Shown: positions 1 to 21,630 of the stretch, piece by piece | Numbering within the stretch: position 1 is the first letter of the stretch | Layout of the letters: each line of letters begins with the position of its first letter | Source: Chloroflexota bacterium | GTDB taxonomy: Bacteria; Chloroflexota; Ktedonobacteria; Ktedonobacterales; Ktedonobacteraceae | Direction of reading: 5' to 3' | DNA: 24,667 bases | Assembly: GCA_902810755.1 (NCBI GenBank) | Contig: CADDYT010000090.1 | Coordinates: forward strand, 1-24,667 | Position numbers and translations under genes: made by a program | The notes under the pieces: generated by a model | Told to the model about the DNA's origin: nothing | The model's database searches: none | The model's input: the letters and a program-made list of their open reading frames with translations, nothing else

Positions 1-202
1 GGGTGGCCTGCTGCGGTCTCTAGACGACTTCTTTCCAGGCGGCACGAGCCGTCCGTGTATAGTAGGGCCACCCCTTGCGGGTGGCCTGGGGCGGGCTGAA
101 GTGAACGTTTCTGGGGCTACCCCTTGCGGGTGGCCTGAGTCGGGCGCGCACGGGCTGAAGTGAACGCTTATGTGACCGGTATTGCCTCTTGCCGGTGGCC
201 TG
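1..202. repeat. Cluster of GC-rich palindromic dispersed repeats
   Basis: The stretch ahead of the tRNA has no gene. It holds several copies of a unit with core CCCCTTGCGGGTGGCCTG, at about 71-88 and 120-137, with a diverged copy at 185-202 and a truncated one at 1-10. The unit is itself a hairpin: GGCCACCC pairs with GGGTGGCC around CTTGC. A second short unit, GGGCTGAAGTGAACG, occurs near 93 and 153. Bases 54-88 are identical to 16175-16209, and related copies lie at 11545-11642. The family is therefore dispersed in this genome. Its function is unknown; it could be a REP/MITE-like element. Confidence 0.8.
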
Positions 203-3609: not shown

Positions 3610-3868
3610 AATAACATCGGGCGTGTCATGCTGAACGAGAGCGAAGCATGACACGCTCATGGTCCATTCCCGATTGGGAGTAAAAATTCCCCTGTACAGA
3701 AGGAAGCTCTGTTACAACCCTGAGTGGTTAGCCCTCTTCCTGTACAGGACTGACACACCCTGTCTTCTGATAGGCTTGCCAGTAACCGAACGCTTTTTCA
3801 AGCTCGTGTTCTGATGCCGGTTTCCCTGTACGCTTTATATATCTTCTTCAAATCAAACTCTAGCGTGC
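3610..3868 (-). other. Predicted unannotated minus-strand transcript in a convergent gap
   Basis: This gap lies between two gene tails, so no promoter is expected, yet a near-consensus one points into it from 3875-3903. The resulting RNA would be about 250 bases, starting near 3868 and possibly ending at the hairpin at 3621-3656. No complete reading frame with a normal start codon is present. Two short open stretches look protein-like: one translates as KKIYKAYRETG, and a second, in a frame shifted by one base, as KPASEHELEKAFGYWQAYQ. This could be a decayed small gene or a small RNA. Evidence is from sequence only. Confidence 0.3.
3621..3656. repeat. Dispersed inverted repeat, GTGTCATGCT family, copy 2
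   Basis: GCGTGTCATGCT pairs perfectly with AGCATGACACGC (12-base arms) starting 11 bases after the Rieske stop codon. It could end transcription of the Rieske gene. Read on the minus strand it is followed by TTATTTT, so it might also end the transcript predicted to start near 3868. Confidence 0.8.
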
Positions 3869-3903: not shown

Positions 3904-3917
3904 GATTTGTTGTAGCC

Positions 3918-3976
3918 AGACAAAAGAGAGAAACCGCCCGTCCCGAACCGAGACAGGCGGTTTCTCTCTTTTGTCT
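3918..3976. terminator. Long perfect inverted repeat, probable bidirectional terminator
   Basis: Two perfect 21-base arms (3918-3938 and 3956-3976) flank a 17-base loop. One arm ends TTTCTCTCTTTTGTCT. The repeat lies 7 bases beyond the stop codon of the minus-strand secreted protein gene at 3984 and in the tail-to-tail gap with the Rieske gene, so a terminator role is the simplest reading. Confidence 0.75.
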
Positions 3977-3983
3977 GCGGTTA

Positions 3984-5314: not shown

Positions 5315-5358
5315 CGAAAGCGGTGATAAGGCGCGATCGCGCCTTATCACCGCTTTCG
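5315..5358. terminator. 44-base perfect palindrome after the BNR-repeat gene
   Basis: Bases 5315-5336 are the exact reverse complement of 5337-5358, with no loop. The centre reads GCGCGATCGCGC. The palindrome starts 7 bases past the stop codon of the minus-strand gene at 5366, the same distance as the repeat after the neighbouring secreted-protein gene. It has no clear T-run after it on the minus strand, so termination is likely but not certain. Confidence 0.65.
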
Positions 5359-8730: not shown

Positions 8731-8760
8731 ATGATGCTGTGAGCCTCTCACAGCATCATC
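8730..8760. terminator. Bidirectional hairpin between msrB and the TPR-like gene
   Basis: GATGATGCTGTGAG (8730-8743) and CTCACAGCATCATC (8747-8760) form a perfect 14-base stem with a 3-base loop. It starts at the last base of the msrB stop codon and overlaps the stop codon of the opposing gene, so one compact element serves both convergent genes. Confidence 0.75.
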
Positions 8761-10696
8761 AAATTGTCTCGTCTTCCCAGACGCGGTGCAGGATGGTGAG
8801 GGCGGCTTTCTCAAAGGCTTCATCGGTGAGGAGAGAGAGGTCGGGTTCGCCGCGCAATTTGCGCTCGGAGTTCTGCTGGAGCAGGATAAAGGCGAGCTGC
8901 TCCCAGCCCTGCGCGGCCTTATCGGCGGGGAAGAGCGCGGCAAAACACGGATCCTGGGCGGGATACTGCCAGAGAGCGCGGTTGCGCGCCAGGCTGTAAA
9001 CGAGGTAGCGGCGCGCCGCCTGCCCGGCGTTCTTATCCGGCATGGTGACATCATCCGGCAGGTTCAGGTGCCAGCAGCCGGCGATGGCATACCAGCAGGC
9101 AAGGTTGTAAAGCAGGTAGCTGTCGCTCTCGGACGTGAAATCCCAGTTGCCGCCGCGCAGGTGCCGCAGACCGTTGATGGCGTCATCTCTGCACGCGGCA
9201 TCGTTAAGCAGGAGACGAGCGGTGCAGATGCCGAGGTTGAGGCGGCGTTCGATGGTTGTGTCGTCGGGTATGGCTGTGCCGTTGCGCCTCACTACCGGTT
9301 GCCGGTACACATCGTTGTGCGTGTGGAAGCGACGCCATGCCTCACTGTAGGCATCCAGCGCCTGATAGAAATGCGTTTTGCTGCTGTCGGGCGGGGTATC
9401 TGTCAATATCTTCGTGGTTGTACCGGGTTGCGTCTGCACCATCGCCTGCAACCCCCACATGGTCCAGGTATCGCCCAGATTTTCGTAGGGCTTGTACCAC
9501 TTTTCATTCAGGGCGCTGGCCTGCTGGAAATGGTCTATGGCCTGCCGATAAAACGTGGGGAAGCGGTCGTATCGCTGCGAGCATACCAGGTAGAGGTAGC
9601 CAACGTAATTGGTAAGCAGCGTGTGATGCCGCCGCGTGTAGTCGCGGCTGGAGAGTTTATGCTGCCCGCTCAGGTAGCCGGTGAGCCAGCGCCAGTAGAA
9701 GGCGGGGCTTGCCTCGTTCGCCAGAATGCTGCGGTGCGTCACCTCGACGGCCAGCCAGCCTGTCGCCGGTGGCACCAGCGCGAGATAGCGTTTCTCCCGC
9801 TCATAGAGATCAGGGGCGCCCGTGCTATCAGCCGTTTCCTGCCCGGCAAGTGCTTCCTGCTCAACCTTCACCTTTGCCTTCCTGCCCCTGTTCCCGTTCC
9901 CGTTCGGCTGCGTTGGAGTTTCCGTCGTGGAAGTGGCGCTGGCGGCGCTGGCGGTCGCTACCGGGATGCTCTGCCCGGTTTGCCTGCCTGCCCCGTTTGC
10001 CGTATCCGATTCCCAGAAGGTAGAGAGAACCGAGGGGATATTGCTCCGCAAATCCTGAACCTCGAAACTCAAGCCGAGTTGTACCCTGTCAGCTGTCTCG
10101 CCGCGCGCCTGCAAAATGGTTGCTATTTTTGTGCCGCGAGGGGTAAAAACAAGGCTCAGGAGTTCAACGGCGGTCTGCACCGTTGTATTGGCCCCTGCGG
10201 CATCTTTGAGCGAGGCCAGCAGGTTATTGAGCTGCGTCGGGTCGGCTGCTTCGGGAACGGGGTTGCGGTCCGCCGTGCGCGGCAGCAGGAACATGGAGCC
10301 AGCTCTTCTCTGTTTCCGCCCGCCGTTGCCCGGTTGCTCGGTCTCCTCGCTGATCTCCGTCAGGGCCGTCGCCAGCCCCTCGCGCGTCAACTGGTTCAGG
10401 CCGCCTGCGATCCTGTCGAGATCATCACAGTCTGAGGCATTGGTAAACGGATCAACGACCAGATGGGCAACGCGGCTCAGCCGCCAGACATGCCAGATGA
10501 GGACCGCGCCCAGAATAATGATGAGGATGGTCGCGACGATCTCGGCCAGCGTTAGCAGCAAGCCACCAACTTTGCCGAAATTATTCTGCAAGCCGTCTGC
10601 GAAGGTGGACAGGGGGGCCGGGAGAAAGAACAACAGGCAGACAATCACGAGCAAAGCCACAATGATAGCGATAATGAGAGGCGTCCGGGTCTTCAT
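8759..10696 (-). CDS. Membrane-anchored TPR-like protein of unknown function
   Basis: A 645-residue protein I cannot assign to a known family. Two hydrophobic helices (about 6-25 and 43-70) place it in the membrane with a long cytoplasmic part following WHVWRLSR. Residues about 80-240 form a helical region with a Gly/Arg-rich segment near 125-135. Residues about 245-295 are a low-complexity linker rich in Ala, Thr, Asn and Lys. From about 300 to the end the sequence is helical, with TPR-like pieces such as YRQAIDHFQQASALNEKWYKPYENLGDTW and LLYNLACWYAIAGCW; the phrase AVEVTHRSILANEASPAFYW precedes them. TPR regions usually hold protein partners. The gene is transcribed alone; AGGGAG lies about 8 bases before the ATG. 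A small inverted repeat, TGATCG/CGATCA (10724-10740), sits just upstream and might be an operator. Confidence 0.8.
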   Translation of the reverse strand: MKTRTPLIIAIIVALLVIVCLLFFLPAPLSTFADGLQNNFGKVGGLLLTLAEIVATILIIILGAVLIWHVWRLSRVAHLVVDPFTNASDCDDLDRIAGGLNQLTREGLATALTEISEETEQPGNGGRKQRRAGSMFLLPRTADRNPVPEAADPTQLNNLLASLKDAAGANTTVQTAVELLSLVFTPRGTKIATILQARGETADRVQLGLSFEVQDLRSNIPSVLSTFWESDTANGAGRQTGQSIPVATASAASATSTTETPTQPNGNGNRGRKAKVKVEQEALAGQETADSTGAPDLYEREKRYLALVPPATGWLAVEVTHRSILANEASPAFYWRWLTGYLSGQHKLSSRDYTRRHHTLLTNYVGYLYLVCSQRYDRFPTFYRQAIDHFQQASALNEKWYKPYENLGDTWTMWGLQAMVQTQPGTTTKILTDTPPDSSKTHFYQALDAYSEAWRRFHTHNDVYRQPVVRRNGTAIPDDTTIERRLNLGICTARLLLNDAACRDDAINGLRHLRGGNWDFTSESDSYLLYNLACWYAIAGCWHLNLPDDVTMPDKNAGQAARRYLVYSLARNRALWQYPAQDPCFAALFPADKAAQGWEQLAFILLQQNSERKLRGEPDLSLLTDEAFEKAALTILHRVWEDETI

Positions 10697-11401: not shown

Positions 11402-11482
11402 TCATGCTGAGTGAAGCGAAGCATCTGAGGCAACCCATAACGGTCAATCCGATGATTGGATGCTTCGCTTCACTCAGCATGA
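11402..11482. repeat. Long-stem member of the ATGCTGAG dispersed repeat family
   Basis: Two oppositely oriented copies (11402-11425 and 11459-11482) form a perfect 24-base stem around a 33-base loop. The core ATGCTGAGTGAAGCGAAGCA matches the family seen at 2453, 3621 and 20524. The surrounding gap (11268-11506) holds no gene that I can support. Confidence 0.85.
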
Positions 11483-11506: not shown

Positions 11507-11703
11507 CATGCCGTATGCTGGCTCCCCGTCACAGGTCGACAGCGCAGGCCACCCGCCAGGGGTGGCCCTACGAGAGACGACCCCTCCACAAGCGGCACGA
11601 GCCGCCCGTATTATAGTAGGGCTACCCCTGGCGGATGGCCTGCGGTGCCGGGTCGTATAAGAGGAATCCGGCAGGCCAGCAGAGGGAGCCAGCATACGGC
11701 ATG
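11507..11703. repeat. Composite 197-base element with terminal inverted repeats (MITE-like)
   Basis: The outer ends (11507-11526 and 11684-11703) are perfect 20-base inverted repeats ending ATGCCGTATGCTGGCTCCC. Nested inside are two oppositely oriented copies (11545-11571 and 11616-11642) of the GC-rich palindrome also found at 1-202 and 16103-16209, with two mismatches between them. The phrase GGCACGAGCCG between them also occurs at 41-51. The element has no open frame of note and ends 28 bases before the recQ start, so it must displace or supply upstream control of recQ. Target-site duplications are not obvious. Confidence 0.7.
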
Positions 11704-11730: not shown

Positions 11731-13986
11731 GTGCAGGATATCGATGGGGCGTTGAAGCAGTATTTTGGCTTTGGGGAGTTCTGGCCGGGGCAGCGGCAGG
11801 TGATTGAGCAGGTGCTGGCGGGACGCGATACGTTTGTGTTGATGCCGACCGGCGGGGGCAAGTCGCTGACGTACCAGCTCCCGGCGCTGCTGCTGCCGGG
11901 GCTGACGGTGGTGGTCTCGCCGCTGATCGCGCTGATGCAGGATCAGGTGGATCGCTTGCTGGCGAATGGTATTGACGCTACATTTATCAATAGCTCGCTA
12001 GCGGTTGAGGAGCGGGCACGGCGCGAGCGGCAGGCCATCAATGGCGAGGTGAGGCTGCTCTACGTCGCGCCCGAACGGCTGATGGGGCCAAACTTCCTCT
12101 CTTTGCTCGACCGTGTGGAGAATAACGTGGGGCTGTCATTGATCGCCGTGGACGAGGCGCACTGCGTGAGCGAGTGGGGGCATGATTTTCGCCCGGAGTA
12201 TCGCCAGCTGGGGCAGTTGCGCGAACGCTACCTGGAGACGCCCATGCTGGCGCTGACGGCGACGGCGACCGAGCGCGTGCGCGATGATATCCTTGAGCAA
12301 CTGCGGCTACACGACCCGTATATCCATATCGCCAGCTTCGACCGGCCCAACCTGTATTATGAGGTGCGGCAGAAGCATCAGAGGTCATACCGCGAACTGG
12401 TGCAGATTTTGCGCGAGCTGGATGGAGCCTCTACCATCATTTACCGCAATAGCCGCGAAAGCGTCGATGAGCTGAGCGCGGCGCTGGAACGCGACGGCAT
12501 CCCGGCGCTGCCCTACCATGCCGGGCTGAGCAACGAGGAGCGCGCAGAGAATCAGATGCGCTTCATTCGCGACGATGTGCCGGTGCTGGTGGCGACCATC
12601 GCCTTTGGCATGGGCATCGCCAAGCCAGATGTGCGCGCGGTCATCCATTATGATTTGCCGCGCAACCTTGAGGGCTACTATCAGGAGTCGGGCCGCGCCG
12701 GACGCGACGGGCTGCCCGCGCAGTGTCTCCTCTTTTACAGCGCAGGCGACCGTGCAAAGCTCAACTATATTGTTGGACAGAAGGAAGACCTGTACGAGCA
12801 GCGGCTGGCGCAGCACCAGTTGCAGCAGATAGCAGCCTATGGCGAAAGCGCGGAATGCCGCCGTCGCATCCTGCTGGGCTACTTCGGCGAGGTCTACGGA
12901 CGGGACAATTGCGGCAACTGCGATAATTGCCTGCACGAGCAGGTGATTGAAGACCGCACGATAGACGCGCAGAAGTTTCTCTCCTGCATCGTGCGCACGC
13001 AGCAACGCTTCGGCATGCGCCACATCATCGACATCCTGCGCGGGGCCAATACGCAGAAGATTCGCGACTACGGACACGAGCAGCTTTCGACCTATGGCAT
13101 CGGCAAGGATCGCAGCGTGGAAGAATGGTTGCGTCTCGGTCGCTCGCTGCTCCACCAGGGACTGCTGCTGGAGACGAAGGACAGCTATCCGGTGCTGCGC
13201 CTGAATCCCTACTCACGCGAGATTTTGCGGGGCGAGCGGCAGGTGCTGGTTGCCATGCCCGCGCCTGCACCTGCTTCCACGCCGGGCAGAGCAAGGCAGC
13301 AGCAAGAGGCGGCGCCGGGGAAGGTGAGAAAAGAGCAGATTGCCCCCCTCTCGCCGGAGGAAGAGGGATTGTTCCAGCATTTACGCAACCTGCGCAAGCG
13401 ACTGGCCGACAAAAAGGGTCTGCCGCCCTACATGGTCTTCGCCGATACCAGCCTGCAGGCGATGGCGCAGTGGCGACCGCTCAGCCAGGCGCATTTCGAG
13501 CGCATCCCCGGCGTGGGGGCGAGCAAGCTGGAAACCTACTTCACGGTCTTCACCGACGCCATTCGCGACTACTGCGCGCAGCACAATATGACGACGGACA
13601 TAGAACCGCCGACAGGGGCGAAGAAGCCGGAAAAGGCGAAGAAAAGCGAGGAAGTAGCCATCGGGCCGTCGCCGTCGTCGCGGCAGCTCACGCTGGAGCT
13701 ATTCCGCCAGGGGCTGAGCATCGCCGAGATTGCCGCGCGCAGAAATCTCGCGCTCACAACGATTGAAAGCCATCTGGCCGATTTAATCGAGGAGGGCGAG
13801 GAGGTCGATATTGAGCGGCTGGTGCCGCCCGCGCGCTACGCGGTTATGCTCGCCGCCTTTGAGCGTTTTGGCGACGGGCCGCTCAAGCCGGTCAAAGAGT
13901 TTCTGGGCGATGCATTTTCGTATGGCGAGTTGCGCATGGTGCGCGCCACGCTGCGCCATCACGGGGCCCCGCCCGATGAGACCTGA
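11731..13986 (+). CDS. recQ: ATP-dependent DNA helicase RecQ with C-terminal HTH extension
   Basis: A 3'-5' DNA helicase for recombination and fork repair, 751 residues from a GTG start with AGGAGAGAGGG just upstream. Helicase motifs are all present: motif I TGGGKS (40-45), DEAH (141-144), ALTATAT, and in the second lobe YHAGLS and the QESGRAGRDG motif VI. The zinc site follows with Cys residues in CRRRI and CGNCDNC (about 375-400), then the RQC winged helix. An Ala/Pro linker (about 507-530) leads to an HRDC domain (about 535-620). After a Lys-rich linker, the last 100 residues (QLTLELFRQGLSIAEIAARR onward) form a helix-turn-helix region like that seen after HRDC in some RecQ proteins. The 3' end overlaps the tail of the opposing pseudouridine synthase gene by 28 bases. 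Confidence 0.97.
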   Translation: MQDIDGALKQYFGFGEFWPGQRQVIEQVLAGRDTFVLMPTGGGKSLTYQLPALLLPGLTVVVSPLIALMQDQVDRLLANGIDATFINSSLAVEERARRERQAINGEVRLLYVAPERLMGPNFLSLLDRVENNVGLSLIAVDEAHCVSEWGHDFRPEYRQLGQLRERYLETPMLALTATATERVRDDILEQLRLHDPYIHIASFDRPNLYYEVRQKHQRSYRELVQILRELDGASTIIYRNSRESVDELSAALERDGIPALPYHAGLSNEERAENQMRFIRDDVPVLVATIAFGMGIAKPDVRAVIHYDLPRNLEGYYQESGRAGRDGLPAQCLLFYSAGDRAKLNYIVGQKEDLYEQRLAQHQLQQIAAYGESAECRRRILLGYFGEVYGRDNCGNCDNCLHEQVIEDRTIDAQKFLSCIVRTQQRFGMRHIIDILRGANTQKIRDYGHEQLSTYGIGKDRSVEEWLRLGRSLLHQGLLLETKDSYPVLRLNPYSREILRGERQVLVAMPAPAPASTPGRARQQQEAAPGKVRKEQIAPLSPEEEGLFQHLRNLRKRLADKKGLPPYMVFADTSLQAMAQWRPLSQAHFERIPGVGASKLETYFTVFTDAIRDYCAQHNMTTDIEPPTGAKKPEKAKKSEEVAIGPSPSSRQLTLELFRQGLSIAEIAARRNLALTTIESHLADLIEEGEEVDIERLVPPARYAVMLAAFERFGDGPLKPVKEFLGDAFSYGELRMVRATLRHHGAPPDET

Positions 13987-14795
13987 GAAAGCTGTTCCAG
14001 TTCGCGCGGCGTCAGGTAGCGCCAGTGACCGGGGGGCAGGTTGGCGAGCGTGAGGGGGCCAATGCCGGTACGGATGAGCTGAAGGACGGGATGCCCAACG
14101 GCGGCGAGCATACGGCGCACCTGGCGTTTGCGCCCCTCATGGATGCTGAGAGCGAGCCAGCAATGTGTCTGTGAGGAACGCTCGCGGCGCAGCAGGCGCA
14201 CCTGTACAGGCGTGGTTCGGTGACGCTGGCCGTTGTCCTCGACGATCTCGACGCCGCGCCGCAGGGCATTGAGCGCGGCTTTATCGGGGCAGCCCTCTAC
14301 CAGCGCCTCGTAGTGCTTCTGCATGGAGTAGCGGGGATGGGTCATGCGCAGGGCAAAATCGCCATCGTTGGTGAGCAGGAGCAGGCCGCTGGTGTCGAGG
14401 TCGAGGCGACCGACGGGGTAGAGGCGCAGATGGCGCAGTTCTTCCGGGAGCAGATCGAGGACGGTGCGCCGATGCTGCGGGTCGTAGACCGTGCTGACGT
14501 AGCCGACGGGCTTGTGCAGCAGCACGTAGACATGCTGCGCGGGAGCCGAGACCTGTTTGCCATCGACACTGACGGTATCGCGCGCGGGCTGGATGCGCGT
14601 CCCCTGCGCCCTCACGGTCACGCCGTTCACCTGCACGCGCCCGGCTGCTATCAATGCTTCGGCGTGGCGGCGCGAGGCGACTCCCGCATGGGCCAGGAAG
14701 CGGGCCAGGCGTTCGCCCTCCTCCTGTCCCTTGCTCTGTTCTTTCCCCGATTCAGCTTCTGCTGCGGATTGGTGTTCCGGGTCTGGTTGCATCAT
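13959..14795 (-). CDS. rRNA pseudouridine synthase, RsuA/RluB/RluE/RluF family
   Basis: Converts a uridine in rRNA to pseudouridine. The chosen product has 278 residues. A charged lead (about 1-25) is followed by an S4 RNA-binding domain (about 28-82, RLARFLAHAGVASRRHAEAL) and the catalytic domain, with D132 in GRLDLDTSGLLLLTNDG as the catalytic aspartate and the family end motif EGRKRQVRRMLAAVGHPVLQL. The family covers 16S (RsuA) and 23S (RluB, RluE, RluF) enzymes; the exact target is not clear, though the layout looks RluB-like. The ATG at 14795 overlaps the DUF2851 stop codon as ATGA, suggesting coupled translation; an in-frame ATG at 14804 is also possible. It is last in a three-gene operon. 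Confidence 0.93.
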   Translation of the reverse strand: MMQPDPEHQSAAEAESGKEQSKGQEEGERLARFLAHAGVASRRHAEALIAAGRVQVNGVTVRAQGTRIQPARDTVSVDGKQVSAPAQHVYVLLHKPVGYVSTVYDPQHRRTVLDLLPEELRHLRLYPVGRLDLDTSGLLLLTNDGDFALRMTHPRYSMQKHYEALVEGCPDKAALNALRRGVEIVEDNGQRHRTTPVQVRLLRRERSSQTHCWLALSIHEGRKRQVRRMLAAVGHPVLQLIRTGIGPLTLANLPPGHWRYLTPRELEQLSQVSSGGAP

Positions 14796-16492
14796 ACATC
14801 CCATTTTCCTGCGAGGCAGGCCGCGCAGTGTTTTTCGCGACAGGTTGATTGATAGATATGGTGCAACCCCTGTTGCGCGCAACTGCCGCGAGGTTCAGCC
14901 TGCAATTGTAACTGCGCACACATAACACGGATAACACGGTTAGAAGAGAGACCGGGATGCTCAAGGTAGAGTTGCCGGGCAGCGTCCGTCAGCGCGCTAT
15001 CGCCTTCGATCAAGCCGAGGGCGGCGGCAAAGGGCAGGACAACGTTGCAGAGGACGATATCGGCGCGCGCTTTGCTCAGCCCGGCCTCGATGAAGAGGGC
15101 ACGCAGGGTGTGCAGCGCCTGCGAGGTTGGCAGAGCGAGACACTGGCGGATTTCCGTTGTCGCGCTCTGTGTCGCGGCTCGTTGCCAGAGGCGGCGCAGG
15201 GCGTGCAGGCGCGCGGCATCGAGTGAGGGCGGCTCAACGCCGCGGCCGGTCGGCGGCGGCACGTGACCGGCGCCATCCAGACCCAGCAGGTAGAGGGCGG
15301 CTGCGCGGAAGAAAGCGCGGTCTCGCCCGTAGGCCAGCGCCTCGGCCAGCGCAGGCAGCAAGCAGCGGTCATAGAGGTGTTCTACCGGCGGCCTCTCCTC
15401 ATATTGCTCAGCAAAGACGGCGCGCAGTTGTTCCACAAAGCTCTCCACTTTCTGCTCGAAGCGCAGCAGCCCGGCGGTGCGCAGCAGCCCGGCGCGCTCC
15501 TTCTCGTTCAGACGCCGCATCACGTCATGACACGGCCAGTGCGCCGCCTCTTCTGCTGACGGCAAAGGAGACAGGGCTGATTGAGCAGGCGAGCAGGAAA
15601 GCACAGGCCGGTCGTAGAGGGAGCAGGTGGGGATAGTGGCCCCGTCCTGGCGGCTGGTGGGCCGGTCGTCGTCACAGAGCAGGACGACGTGCAGCACGAC
15701 GTGATTGTAGCGAGCATCCGTGTGGTGCCGGTGAGCGAACCAGTCGCTGGCGCGCACGTGAAATTCGACATCGCCCACCAGCGCGGTCTCTTCCGGTTCC
15801 GGCGCGAAGACGGCATCGCGCACATCGGGGCCAGCAGCACTGCCGCGCTGGCCGGCAAAGAGCAGCCGGTAGCAGGAACCGTTGCCCAGTTGCAGGTTCG
15901 CGCCAACCGGCAAGGCCCACCAGCGCCGCGCCACCTCATCTTCGGCAGGGTAGAGACGGCGCGGTTCAAGAACGGCTGGATCAGAGGCCACATCGCCCCC
16001 GCAGGCCCCCGCGCCTCCCGGCAGGGCAGCCGCCGCGTCGCATGCCAGGGCAGCCGCCGCGTCGCATGCCAGGGCAGCCAACAGACCCCCGGCGCCCGCC
16101 CACAGGCCACCCGCAAGGGGTGGCCCTACTAGAGACGTCATGTTCCCCATATGTGACATCTGGCTGCCACTGGTCGTGTATAGTAGGGCCACCCCTTGCG
16201 GGTGGCCTGCGGTGTGACCTGTTGACGGCGGGCGGGTTGTCGACGGCGGGTGGCCTGTTGACGGCGGGCGTCCTGTTGACGGCACGTGACCTGTCGACGG
16301 CGGGTGGCCTGTTGACGGCACGTGACCTGTTGACGGCGCTTGTGCTGTTGTCGACGGCGCGTGGCCTGTTGACGGCACGTGACCTGTCGACGGCGCCTGT
16401 GCTGTTGTCGACGGCACGTGGGCTGCTGACGACGCCTGGGTTGTTGACGACGGCGCGTGGCCTGTCGACGGATGGGTTGTCGGGGTCTCCAT
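14792..16492 (-). CDS. DUF2851 family protein with a repeat-built N-terminus
   Basis: The conserved part begins near residue 170. Residues 200-272 carry the DUF2851 pattern: GPD followed by GDVEFHVRASDWFAHRHH, D..YN and VVLHVVL. A Cys-rich end, CREKHCAACL, is also typical. The family's biochemical role is unknown. The first 170 residues are unusual. Residues 5-92 are hexapeptide repeats of the type GHxPST. Residues 95-130 are the translation of the dispersed palindrome pair at 16103-16209. Residues 142-157 are a duplicated ACDAAAAL. The ATG at 16492 is 9 bases after the stop of the upstream coiled-coil gene but has no clear ribosome site, so translation might start later (Met at 112, 115 or 118 are candidates). 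The downstream pseudouridine synthase overlaps it by 4 bases. Confidence 0.8.
   Translation of the reverse strand: METPTTHPSTGHAPSSTTQASSAAHVPSTTAQAPSTGHVPSTGHAPSTTAQAPSTGHVPSTGHPPSTGHVPSTGRPPSTGHPPSTTRPPSTGHTAGHPQGVALLYTTSGSQMSHMGNMTSLVGPPLAGGLWAGAGGLLAALACDAAAALACDAAAALPGGAGACGGDVASDPAVLEPRRLYPAEDEVARRWWALPVGANLQLGNGSCYRLLFAGQRGSAAGPDVRDAVFAPEPEETALVGDVEFHVRASDWFAHRHHTDARYNHVVLHVVLLCDDDRPTSRQDGATIPTCSLYDRPVLSCSPAQSALSPLPSAEEAAHWPCHDVMRRLNEKERAGLLRTAGLLRFEQKVESFVEQLRAVFAEQYEERPPVEHLYDRCLLPALAEALAYGRDRAFFRAAALYLLGLDGAGHVPPPTGRGVEPPSLDAARLHALRRLWQRAATQSATTEIRQCLALPTSQALHTLRALFIEAGLSKARADIVLCNVVLPFAAALGLIEGDSALTDAARQLYLEHPGLSSNRVIRVMCAQLQLQAEPRGSCAQQGLHHIYQSTCREKHCAACLAGKWDV
16026..16080. repeat. 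24-base tandem repeat inside the DUF2851 gene
   Basis: A 24-base unit beginning GCAGCCGCCGCGTCGCATGC occurs at 16026-16049 and 16050-16073 without change, followed by seven bases of a third copy. The length is a multiple of three, so the reading frame is kept and the octapeptide ACDAAAAL is doubled. Confidence 0.85.
16103..16209. repeat. Dispersed GC-rich palindrome pair located inside a reading frame
   Basis: Bases 16103-16131 and 16181-16209 are perfect 29-base inverted repeats around a 49-base loop. Each arm is itself a hairpin (GGCCACCC/GGGTGGCC). Bases 16175-16209 match 54-88 exactly. This pair lies wholly in the DUF2851 frame and stays open through it, coding for residues about 95-130. 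Confidence 0.85.
16217..16490. repeat. Minisatellite of 18-base units coding for GHxPST hexapeptides
   Basis: The plus strand shows about a dozen units of the form TGTTGACGGCACGTGACC with variants. Unit lengths are 15, 18 or 21 bases, always a multiple of three, so the minus-strand DUF2851 frame is kept. Many units carry GTCGAC or GTTGAC. The conserved phase supports translation of this stretch. Confidence 0.85.
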
Positions 16493-16501
16493 TCACAGGT
16501 T

Positions 16502-18127
16502 CTACTCCAGTGCCTGCTCTTCGTCAGCAGTTTCGATGGTGTGACTATCGAGAGAGGCCCGGCCCTCGGCTACTGTGGCTTCGGCTTCGGCGCTCCTGGC
16601 GGCCTGGATGGCTTGCTCCTCGGCGGCTTCGGCATCGGCCAGCGTGGCCTGCGCCTGTGTATAGGCCTCTTCCGCTGTGCGCAGGCTCATTTCCGCGTCT
16701 TCTCCGCTCAGTTCGCCGCGCTGGATGGCCTCGCGCACGCGCTGCAGGTTCTCTTCGGCCTGCTGCGCGTTGTGGCGGGCCTCTCGCGTGGTCGCGCTGC
16801 TGGCCTCGGCCATCGCGGCGGCCTGCGCAGCAGCGGCGGCGGCCACCTCGGCAACGGTCATAGAGGTAGCAGCGTTTTCCACGCTCTCTTCCTCAGCCTC
16901 GGCGGCCTGCGCTCGCGGCCCCATTTCCGGTGGAAAGGCCGCGTCCCTGGCAGTTGTGGCCTCCGAAGCTGTTTCTTCTGCCGACGGCGCGGACGGTTCC
17001 GCTAGCTCCTGCGCCGCTGCCTCATCTGCGGGCGCGGGCGGCTCCTCGCCCCCGTCGGTTTCGGCTTCGCCTGTTGCGTTCGTCGGGGCGGCAGTTGCGG
17101 CGGTCTCAACGGTTCCGGTCGTCGCGGTAGCTTCCGGCGCGCTTCCTGCCAGCTTGCGCGCGAGACGTTCGGCCTCCAGCGCCCGTTGCCCGGCCTCGCG
17201 TGCGGCGCGTTCGGCTTCCAGGGCGAGGGCGTCGGCGCGGTCAGCCTCTGCCTGCAACAGATCGACTTCCTGCAACAGGTGGCGGCTTGAGCCGAGGTGT
17301 TCTAAGCGGGCAGAGGCTTCCATGGCGCGTTGCGCTGCCTGCCGCGCCTCCTCCTCGGCGGCCTGAGCGGCAGCCCGTGCCTGGCGCGCCCGTTGCTCCG
17401 CCTCCTGAAATGTGAGCGCGACCGGCGGTGAGGGCTGGGCCTCTGCCTCTTCCCGCGTCGCGGCGATGGGCGTTGCTTCGGGTTCCGCCTCGAAATCCTC
17501 TTCCCGGCCCACTACCGGCGTGGGATGCGGTTCAATCTCCCGCTCTGCCTCACCGATAGCCGGGGTAGCGTATGGTTCGGCTTCTCTCTCCGGCTCCGGC
17601 TCTAGCGTAGGGGCAGGGGCAGGTGTGGGAACCTCTGTTTCTTCTGTCGGCGCTGCGGTTGCGCCATTCATGCCGACAGGTGGTGCAACTGCCGCCTCCG
17701 GCTCCAGCCCTGCTGTGGGTGGCGCAGGTTCCACTTCTGGCTCCGTCGGCGTGGCGGAAGCAGACGGGTCCGTCGGCGTGGCTGTCGTCGTGACCTGCGC
17801 CTCTAACGGTTTGTCGGCAGCCGGGGCAACGTCCGTTTCTGGCGTTACCTCTCCTGTCGGGGCGGCTTCCGGCTCAGGAGTCTCTGCTGTCGGCGGGCCT
17901 GAGCGCAGGGCCGCTAATTGCTGGCGAATAAGCTCCAGGCGTTCCTCGATACGCTGGAGACGGGCAATGCGCTTTTCTACACGGGCCTGGGCGCGTTGTA
18001 AGCCTTCCTGTGCGCTTGCCAGGCGTTCGCGCATGCGCCGCTCGCGCTTCTGTAGTTTCTTCTCGTTCTTGCTTCTTTCCTGGGCTGCTCTTTCCTCTGA
18101 GTGCGCGGTGCGGTACTGATCGGCCAT
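16502..18127 (-). CDS. Ala/Glu-rich coiled-coil protein, unknown function
   Basis: A 541-residue protein of low complexity with no recognisable enzyme domain. Residues about 10-75 are a basic coiled coil (KKLQKRERRMRERLASAQE and similar). Residues about 80-235 are a disordered Pro/Glu/Thr/Ala-rich stretch with repeated TPxxxEA-like motifs. Residues about 245-330 are a second long coiled coil rich in Ala, Arg and Glu. A further acidic linker is followed by a third Ala-rich coiled coil to the end (about 410-541). There is no signal peptide or membrane helix. The ATG at 18127 is preferred; an in-frame GTG at 18175 would add 16 residues. It is first in an operon with the DUF2851 and pseudouridine synthase genes. 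It might be a scaffold or filament-like protein, but this is a guess. Confidence 0.8.
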   Translation of the reverse strand: MADQYRTAHSEERAAQERSKNEKKLQKRERRMRERLASAQEGLQRAQARVEKRIARLQRIEERLELIRQQLAALRSGPPTAETPEPEAAPTGEVTPETDVAPAADKPLEAQVTTTATPTDPSASATPTEPEVEPAPPTAGLEPEAAVAPPVGMNGATAAPTEETEVPTPAPAPTLEPEPEREAEPYATPAIGEAEREIEPHPTPVVGREEDFEAEPEATPIAATREEAEAQPSPPVALTFQEAEQRARQARAAAQAAEEEARQAAQRAMEASARLEHLGSSRHLLQEVDLLQAEADRADALALEAERAAREAGQRALEAERLARKLAGSAPEATATTGTVETAATAAPTNATGEAETDGGEEPPAPADEAAAQELAEPSAPSAEETASEATTARDAAFPPEMGPRAQAAEAEEESVENAATSMTVAEVAAAAAAQAAAMAEASSATTREARHNAQQAEENLQRVREAIQRGELSGEDAEMSLRTAEEAYTQAQATLADAEAAEEQAIQAARSAEAEATVAEGRASLDSHTIETADEEQALE

Positions 18128-18266
18128 AGCTTCTTTCGTCCAACCTTCCCTGGCAAAGCGGGGTCTCCCTTCCACGCTTTGCCCGTTTTTTTAGAGGATA
18201 CCTTATCCGCTCAAAGATTGCAACCTTTTGTTGCCTCAGTCTCTGCCGATAGGTATAGGAGAAACT

Positions 18267-20420: not shown

Positions 20421-20523
20421 TGTATCCGGCAGATCATCGCTTCTGCCACAAAACGCCCGTTTGTGATATAGTATCATCAAGAGATACTCAATGATTGAGC
20501 ATGGCGGTGAAAGTGTCTCGAAC

Positions 20524-20555
20524 GTGTCATGCTGAGCGGCTGCGAAGCATGACAC
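20524..20555. repeat. Dispersed inverted repeat, GTGTCATGCT family, copy in the xdhC leader
   Basis: GTGTCATGCT and AGCATGACAC are 10-base perfect arms around a 12-base loop. The repeat lies 36 bases before the XdhC-family start codon and would be in its leader RNA if the promoter is upstream, for example at TATAGT (20467-20472). Confidence 0.8.
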
Positions 20556-20590
20556 CTCTGAGAGCATGAGCGTAAAGCAGGAGCGAGGCA

Positions 20591-21461: not shown

Positions 21462-21559
21462 CGGGACAGGTCATCCTGAACGCAGCGAAGGATCTGAGGC
21501 AAGGGACTGGCGCTCTGGCCCCTAGAGATCCTTCGCTGCGCCCAGGATGACCTGTCCCG
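21462..21559. repeat. Long inverted repeat, ATCCTGA variant of the dispersed family
   Basis: Arms 21462-21495 and 21526-21559 (34 bases) pair with two mismatches around a 30-base loop. The core TCATCCTGAACGCAGCGAAG differs from the ATGCTGA family by the GGAT/GCAT change. It starts 7 bases past the xdhC stop codon and may end that transcript. Another single arm lies at 21597-21630. Confidence 0.85.
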
Positions 21560-21596
21560 CTCAAAGCCGTGCGGTCTCCATGCGCGCCAAGCAGCC

Positions 21597-21630
21597 AGAG
21601 ATCCTTCGCTACGCTCAGGATGATATGTCC
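21597..21630. repeat. Single arm of the ATCCTGA dispersed repeat
   Basis: AGAGATCCTTCGCTACGCTC followed by AGGATGATATGTCC is a further copy in the same orientation as the right arm at 21526. The rest of the gap up to the lipoprotein gene shows nothing else that I can support. Confidence 0.75.

Follow-up and report, generated by a model that had tools for sequence, protein, structure and literature searches.

Does a palindromic repeat that lies in frame within a gene belong to the protein, or has the reading frame been called too far upstream? The question is raised by a stretch of 24,667 nucleotides from a Ktedonobacteraceae bacterium (the whole stretch is hereafter called the window), where a perfect inverted-repeat pair at 16103–16209 falls inside an open reading frame (ORF) for a DUF2851 protein. 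An earlier note on this DNA took the pair for a dispersed palindromic element which keeps the frame open and is translated, much as Rickettsia palindromic elements are. Our own reading, which we hold with a probability of about 0.65, is that the pair is a dimer of GTAG-tagged repetitive extragenic palindromes (REPs), probably spread by a RAYT transposase, and that the DUF2851 protein would start after the palindrome.

Anatomy of the palindrome pair

Direct comparison of 16103–16131 with 16181–16209 confirmed the inverted repeat, the two arms being exact reverse complements at 29 of 29 bases; taken as 38-nt arms, the same dimer is 92% complementary. With a 49-base loop (16132–16180) the element measures 107 bases. 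From the loop outward, each arm reads 5'-GTAG-GGCCACCC-CTTGC-GGGTGGCC, i.e. a hairpin with a four-base tag. The left unit (16105–16129, minus strand) has its core at 16105–16125 and its GTAG tag at 16126–16129 (CTAC on the plus strand), and the right unit (16183–16207, plus strand) has its tag at 16183–16186 and its core at 16187–16207, with both tags facing inward. The 21-base core, an 8-bp stem with a 5-base loop, fits the short hairpins (20–40 bp) of GTAG-tagged REPs. REPs tagged GTAG or CGTC have been described, pairs with inward tags being called tail-to-tail dimers (Di Nocera et al. 2013, PMC3733652); going by its sequence, the palindrome pair is a tail-to-tail dimer of a GTAG-class REP. 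The minus strand of 16095–16220 is predicted to fold at −86 kcal/mol, which none of 200 shuffled sequences equalled (shuffle mean −49.5, z = −9.4).

The window contains six copies of the core at up to three mismatches (mean of 0.00 in 100 shuffles), which bears out the description of the element as dispersed. Five of the six units are tagged GTAG and one has CTGG, hence none has the CGTC tag. Three of the four places with REPs are inverted doublets able to form a hairpin, as in REPINs. Besides 16103–16209, these are a dimer at 1–88, which has lost its left unit at the window start and retains the right one (GTAG 62–65, core 66–86), and a diverged dimer at 11545–11642, between an ORF at 8759–10696 on the minus strand and recQ, which begins at 11731 on the plus strand. 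Both were described correctly in the earlier note, where the first appeared as a copy at 60–88, i.e. the right half of the truncated dimer. The fourth place is a single core (115–135, plus strand) with one mismatch and CTGG in place of the tag. A tRNA-Arg (anticodon CCT) is found at 252–325, near the REP units of the window start. Rfam detected nothing but a tRNA in the window, and no RAYT gene was found there.

The REP family in a related genome

A scan of genome contigs returned four loci, one of them from Ktedonobacteraceae. The nearest genome reached was a Ktedonobacteraceae MAG (G001), whose DUF2851 protein is ~50% identical to that of the window. Tag plus core at up to two mismatches was detected 107 times in this MAG (control, 0) and twice in the other 46 genomes of its class, both times in G047, with none in the remaining 45. 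The core alone, at up to one mismatch, occurred 110 times (54 forward, 56 reverse; reversed-pattern control, 0). Elsewhere it was seen only in G034 and G035, once each, among 400 sampled genomes of the phylum, and these two 21-mers were rejected as family members, being untagged and part of a longer stem. The element had no match in plasmids, and an exact 25-mer of it gave 0 hits in viral contigs.

At 107 of the 110 core places in the MAG, the tag was GTAA in 54 cases, GTAG in 40 and another sequence in 13 (94 of 107 tagged). An earlier count, from a search whose pattern included the tag, had given 48 GTAG, 46 GTAA and 6 other among the 100 copies with full flanks (of 101), and the core-only search newly added 20 copies from 19 stretches, of which nine were tagged, all with GTAA. 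By the core-only counts, most but not all copies are tagged, and GTAA is no rarer than GTAG. GTAG tagging is thus found in the window and mixed in the MAG. The family is numerous and mostly extragenic, as judged in the MAG from the 110 cores and from 97 copies with up to two mismatches in the first 76 stretches, where 76 copies were intergenic, 10 touched an ORF edge and 11 lay inside (greedy ORFs of at least 100 aa, making up 84% of the DNA). Lone copies predominate (83 of 101), and all 10 adjacent pairs within 200 bases are head-to-tail and none tail-to-tail, unlike the window dimers.

A second dispersed palindromic family is present between genes of the window at 2453–2489, 3622–3658 and 20523–20559, with related arms at 11402–11482 and 21462–21630. 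Its arms are like GTGTCATGCTGAGCG...CGAAGCATGACAC, and as an exact pattern it had 0 matches in the 47 genomes of the MAG's class. Two terminator-like hairpins stand at gene ends, one at 3917–3977 (29-nt arms 3 bases apart) and one at 5315–5358 (22-nt perfect arms, no spacer).

A RAYT-like gene among REP copies

Three Y1_Tnp matches were detected in the MAG, one of which is flanked by REP copies. This match is a RAYT-like ORF of 160 aa on the minus strand of contig C395 (locus L072, 729–1211), with REPs at 629 and 708 (minus) and 1350 (plus), the nearest two of which face each other with their tags inward. Three REPs in the ~1 kb around the ORF compare with 0.015 expected (~0.015 per kb). The best NCBIfam match of the protein was REP_Tyr_transpos (E = 2e-21) at 76.4 bits, just under the cut-off of 80; a search of the PDB gave two chance-level matches. 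An arrangement with two inverted REPs flanking the gene is described for RAYTs (Nunvar et al. 2010, PMC2817692). The stop codon (TAA) of the RAYT-like gene is supplied by the GTAA tag of the REP copy at 708–732, and GTAG tags often supply a TAG stop (Di Nocera et al. 2013, PMC3733652).

The window dimer would be a non-autonomous repeat that a RAYT (tyrosine, HUH) encoded elsewhere in the genome probably spreads in single-stranded form. TnpAREP cleaves single-stranded REPs near the hairpin, and for one such enzyme changes at tag positions 3 and 4 abolish cleavage (PMC8266576), hence the GTAA tag is worth testing and offers a test case against the GTAG rule.

Is the dimer part of the DUF2851 protein?

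As called, the DUF2851 ORF occupies 14792–16492 on the minus strand and runs from ATG 16492 for 566 aa, with the Pfam DUF2851 domain at residues 199–358 and the dimer at residues ~95–130. The N-terminus is built of repeat DNA, as the earlier note had it: a minisatellite of 18–21 base units upstream of the dimer (16214–16471), the palindrome pair and a 24-base tandem duplication of 2.4 copies (16022–16079) are all real. The unit number of the duplication differs in P0001 and P0002, two relatives of the protein. The dimer lies in ~500 bases of repeat-rich DNA that separate the DUF2851 gene from a 557-aa ORF. This 557-aa ORF (16502–18175) is Ala/Glu-rich, directly upstream of DUF2851 and on the same strand; it shows moderately coding-like codon use (slices of 0.05–0.72) and has no match in Pfam or NCBIfam.

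The frame does stay open through the dimer, but this carries little weight, because the 107 bases lack a stop in four of the six frames and other ORFs cross them too. These are a 171-aa ORF in another minus-strand frame (15981–16496), which starts with MNGDP at GTG 16496 and spans the minisatellite and the dimer, and an ORF on the plus strand (16042–16863). Both minus-strand frames across the dimer are also open through the minisatellite. Being G+C-rich and repetitive, the ~500-base stretch would be open in several frames, and ORF calling would for that reason extend DUF2851 back to ATG 16492. Two in-frame start codons follow the dimer, TTG138 (at 16081) and GTG168, the latter overlapped by the TGA (15981–15983) of the 171-aa ORF. 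GTG168 is the start preferred here, and would give a gene at 14792–15991.

Alignment with relatives, a check put forward in the earlier note, showed that the region before the domain is absent elsewhere. Wherever the N-terminus could be read (29 of 29 loci), the open stretch ahead of the domain (residue 177) did not exceed 76 residues; the survey covered 30 loci of 44 genomes with a match, L029 being a fragment with an unreadable N-terminus. Furthermore, proteins P0005–P0012 begin shortly before the DUF2851 domain, and among the 120 matches listed only P0001 and P0003 are longer than 472 residues. A start at GTG168 reads (M)ASDPAVLEPR, alongside MAESDPAVLEPR of P0005, but this codon is not conserved, with alanine at that position in P0002 and P0003.

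Codon use, scored after training on 14 window genes (leave-one-out for controls) and affected here by repeat composition, was non-coding in character over the N-terminus: residues 1–94 scored −0.364, lower than 248 of 248 gene segments, and residues 1–167 scored −0.250, lower than 198 of 198, with slices of the DUF2851 domain at 0.29 to 0.53. Residues 95–130 and 131–167 alone were low yet within range (6 and 10 of 286 gene segments as low). Between the right REP unit and the domain the frame agrees among the window, P0002 and P0003 despite indels, hence residues from ~122 on may be translated.

Given this codon use, the differing frame of P0003 (see below) and the in-frame starts downstream, translation of the element within the DUF2851 protein is unsupported. 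The protein probably begins after the palindrome, most likely at GTG168 or TTG138, leaving the REP dimer outside it, and in-frame carriage is probably an effect of ORF calling. As an extragenic element, the REP dimer would form a very stable hairpin in RNA between the two genes, which could lower or uncouple DUF2851 expression. The earlier note had named two things that would count against translation of the element, a translation start after residue 130 and relatives in which the same N-terminus comes without the palindrome. The former is likely rather than proved, and relatives with other N-termini do exist.

Alternative readings of the locus

Carriage in the manner of the Rickettsia elements would mean that translation does start at ATG 16492, so that the DUF2851 protein carries at its N-terminus a disordered extension encoded by the minisatellite and the REP dimer. 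No stop interrupts the ORF, and the N-terminus recurs in P0001 (546 aa), which shares 96% identity and is 12 + 8 residues shorter there, both differences being whole repeat units, while P0003 and P0004 also possess long repeat-rich N-termini and the same REP family is in frame in two further proteins, P0121 and P0122. We nonetheless find this unlikely in view of the codon use of residues 1–167 and the 29 related loci that lack the N-terminus. Moreover the minisatellite is in a different frame in P0003, the best relative to carry it: residues 1–64 of P0003 give 50.8 bits to the MNGDP frame (GTG 16496) vs 27.7 to the ATG frame, and residues further on match the ATG frame (tblastn piece 14–240, 122 bits, weak through the minisatellite). 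A GGAG precedes both ORFs, 12 bases from ATG 16492 vs 8 from GTG 16496.

That last spacing suits a second alternative, in which ribosomes read the repeats from GTG 16496 in the other frame (the reading of P0003 and P0004), and a frame change at the dimer in the window lineage, for example by dimer–dimer recombination, ends this reading at the TGA and produces two overlapping ORFs. Both P0003 and P0004 start with MNGDPRRP and run into DUF2851, the minisatellite in the MNGDP frame scores 0.264, which is within the gene range (12 of 248 segments as low), and P0003 has two dimers that are read in two frames. As judged from the protein sequences, the first P0003 dimer matches the window plus strand through the loop, hence its loop is flipped relative to that of the window; P0004 has no dimer, and a protein search with the REP stretches of P0003 found only P0003 itself. 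On the other hand the whole 171-aa ORF scores −0.056, lower than 198 of 198 gene segments, no frame stands out in the codon-position variation of the minisatellite, and the recombination step is a guess from the proteins of P0003 and P0004. We regard this alternative as improbable, more so than translation from ATG 16492, but this clade might translate part of the repeats and the ORF at 15981–16496 might matter.

By far the least probable reading makes the palindrome a transcription terminator or some other local structure outside any mobile repeat family. It would account for a very stable hairpin, for window copies lying between genes, for the single untagged 21-mer within a longer stem in G034 and G035 and for the 13 of 107 MAG cores without a tag, but it sits poorly with 110 near-identical cores in one MAG and hardly any elsewhere in the class, and with a tag in 94 of 107 cores and copies around a transposase gene.

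REPs inside other genes

Copies of this REP family are found in frame in two other genes, where the REP is likely to be translated, and in this wider sense the idea of the earlier note holds. P0121 is a metagenomic kinase-Kelch protein of 818 aa in which residues 329–366 are 61% identical to the translation of the window dimer (E = 1e-7 in direct comparison, 0.18 in a database search). The stretch separates the kinase domain from the membrane and Kelch part. At this place the linker varies among 19 aligned relatives, hence the REP could have replaced linker sequence and need not be a clean insertion. P0122, an Eco57I-type methylase of the MAG, has GHVGPPLAGGRG near residue 154, opposite a gap in nine of nine aligned relatives (9 of 15 other loci). 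The 11 inside copies of the MAG belong to 10 greedy ORFs, seven of which were scanned against Pfam (L086, with two copies, L104 and L122 were left out). Five had no domain, and the two that did were P0122 and an iron-sulphur protein with the REP in its first residues.

Intragenic REPs are known, and many N-terminal ones may in fact lie outside the coding sequence, translation beginning further downstream (Di Nocera et al. 2013, PMC3733652); the DUF2851 dimer fits this group of spurious N-terminal REPs. The locus warns that a predicted protein can gain more than 160 residues from repeat DNA. More broadly, a REP family and its linked transposase gene are now described for Ktedonobacteria, along with two proteins in which a REP is likely read through between conserved parts. 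As a speculation that we ourselves doubt, this Ktedonobacteraceae lineage may repeatedly accept REPs as translated linkers, and the several open frames of the arms would help. Loop flipping or dimer recombination before DUF2851 might then switch the frame that reaches the domain and so yield different N-termini from the same repeats, and the GTAA copies with the flanked RAYT may be a REPtron with a changed tag.

Comparison with known repeat systems

Chloroflexi are among the phyla named as having GTAG repeats (PMC3733652). The present family resembles the GTAG-tagged REPs of that study in its hairpin with an 8-bp stem, GTAG at one foot, high copy number and mostly intergenic location, and also in its tail-to-tail dimers and a RAYT gene with flanking copies. 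It differs in that GTAA is at least as frequent as GTAG in the MAG; changes at tag positions 2 and 3, and GTGG, are mentioned in the available text of the study, from which GTAA is absent. With REPINs (Bertels and Rainey 2011, PMC3116915) it shares inverted REP doublets that form one long hairpin and are linked to a RAYT, but such doublets are the rule only in the window, and in the MAG stretches the pair around the transposase gene is the only one. The likeness to RAYTs (Nunvar et al. 2010, PMC2817692) is a gene for a PF01797 protein between inverted REPs, whereas the MAG protein stays below the REP_Tyr_transpos cut-off and its flanking copies are tagged GTAA.

The comparison with Rickettsia palindromic elements drawn in the earlier note stands in part. 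Those too are palindromic repeats that can sit in frame within genes, and this family has in-frame copies in other genes, but by sequence it is a GTAG-tagged REP and its translation in DUF2851 lacks support. RPE-4 and RPE-6 are placed in the sister class, which has the CGTC tag and repeats without transposase association (Di Nocera et al. 2013, PMC3733652). Among the matches listed for literature on Ktedonobacter palindromes or on RAYTs in Chloroflexi, no title on a REP family with a linked transposase in Ktedonobacteria was found. The REP family is probably new, of a known kind, and its common GTAA tag is unusual.
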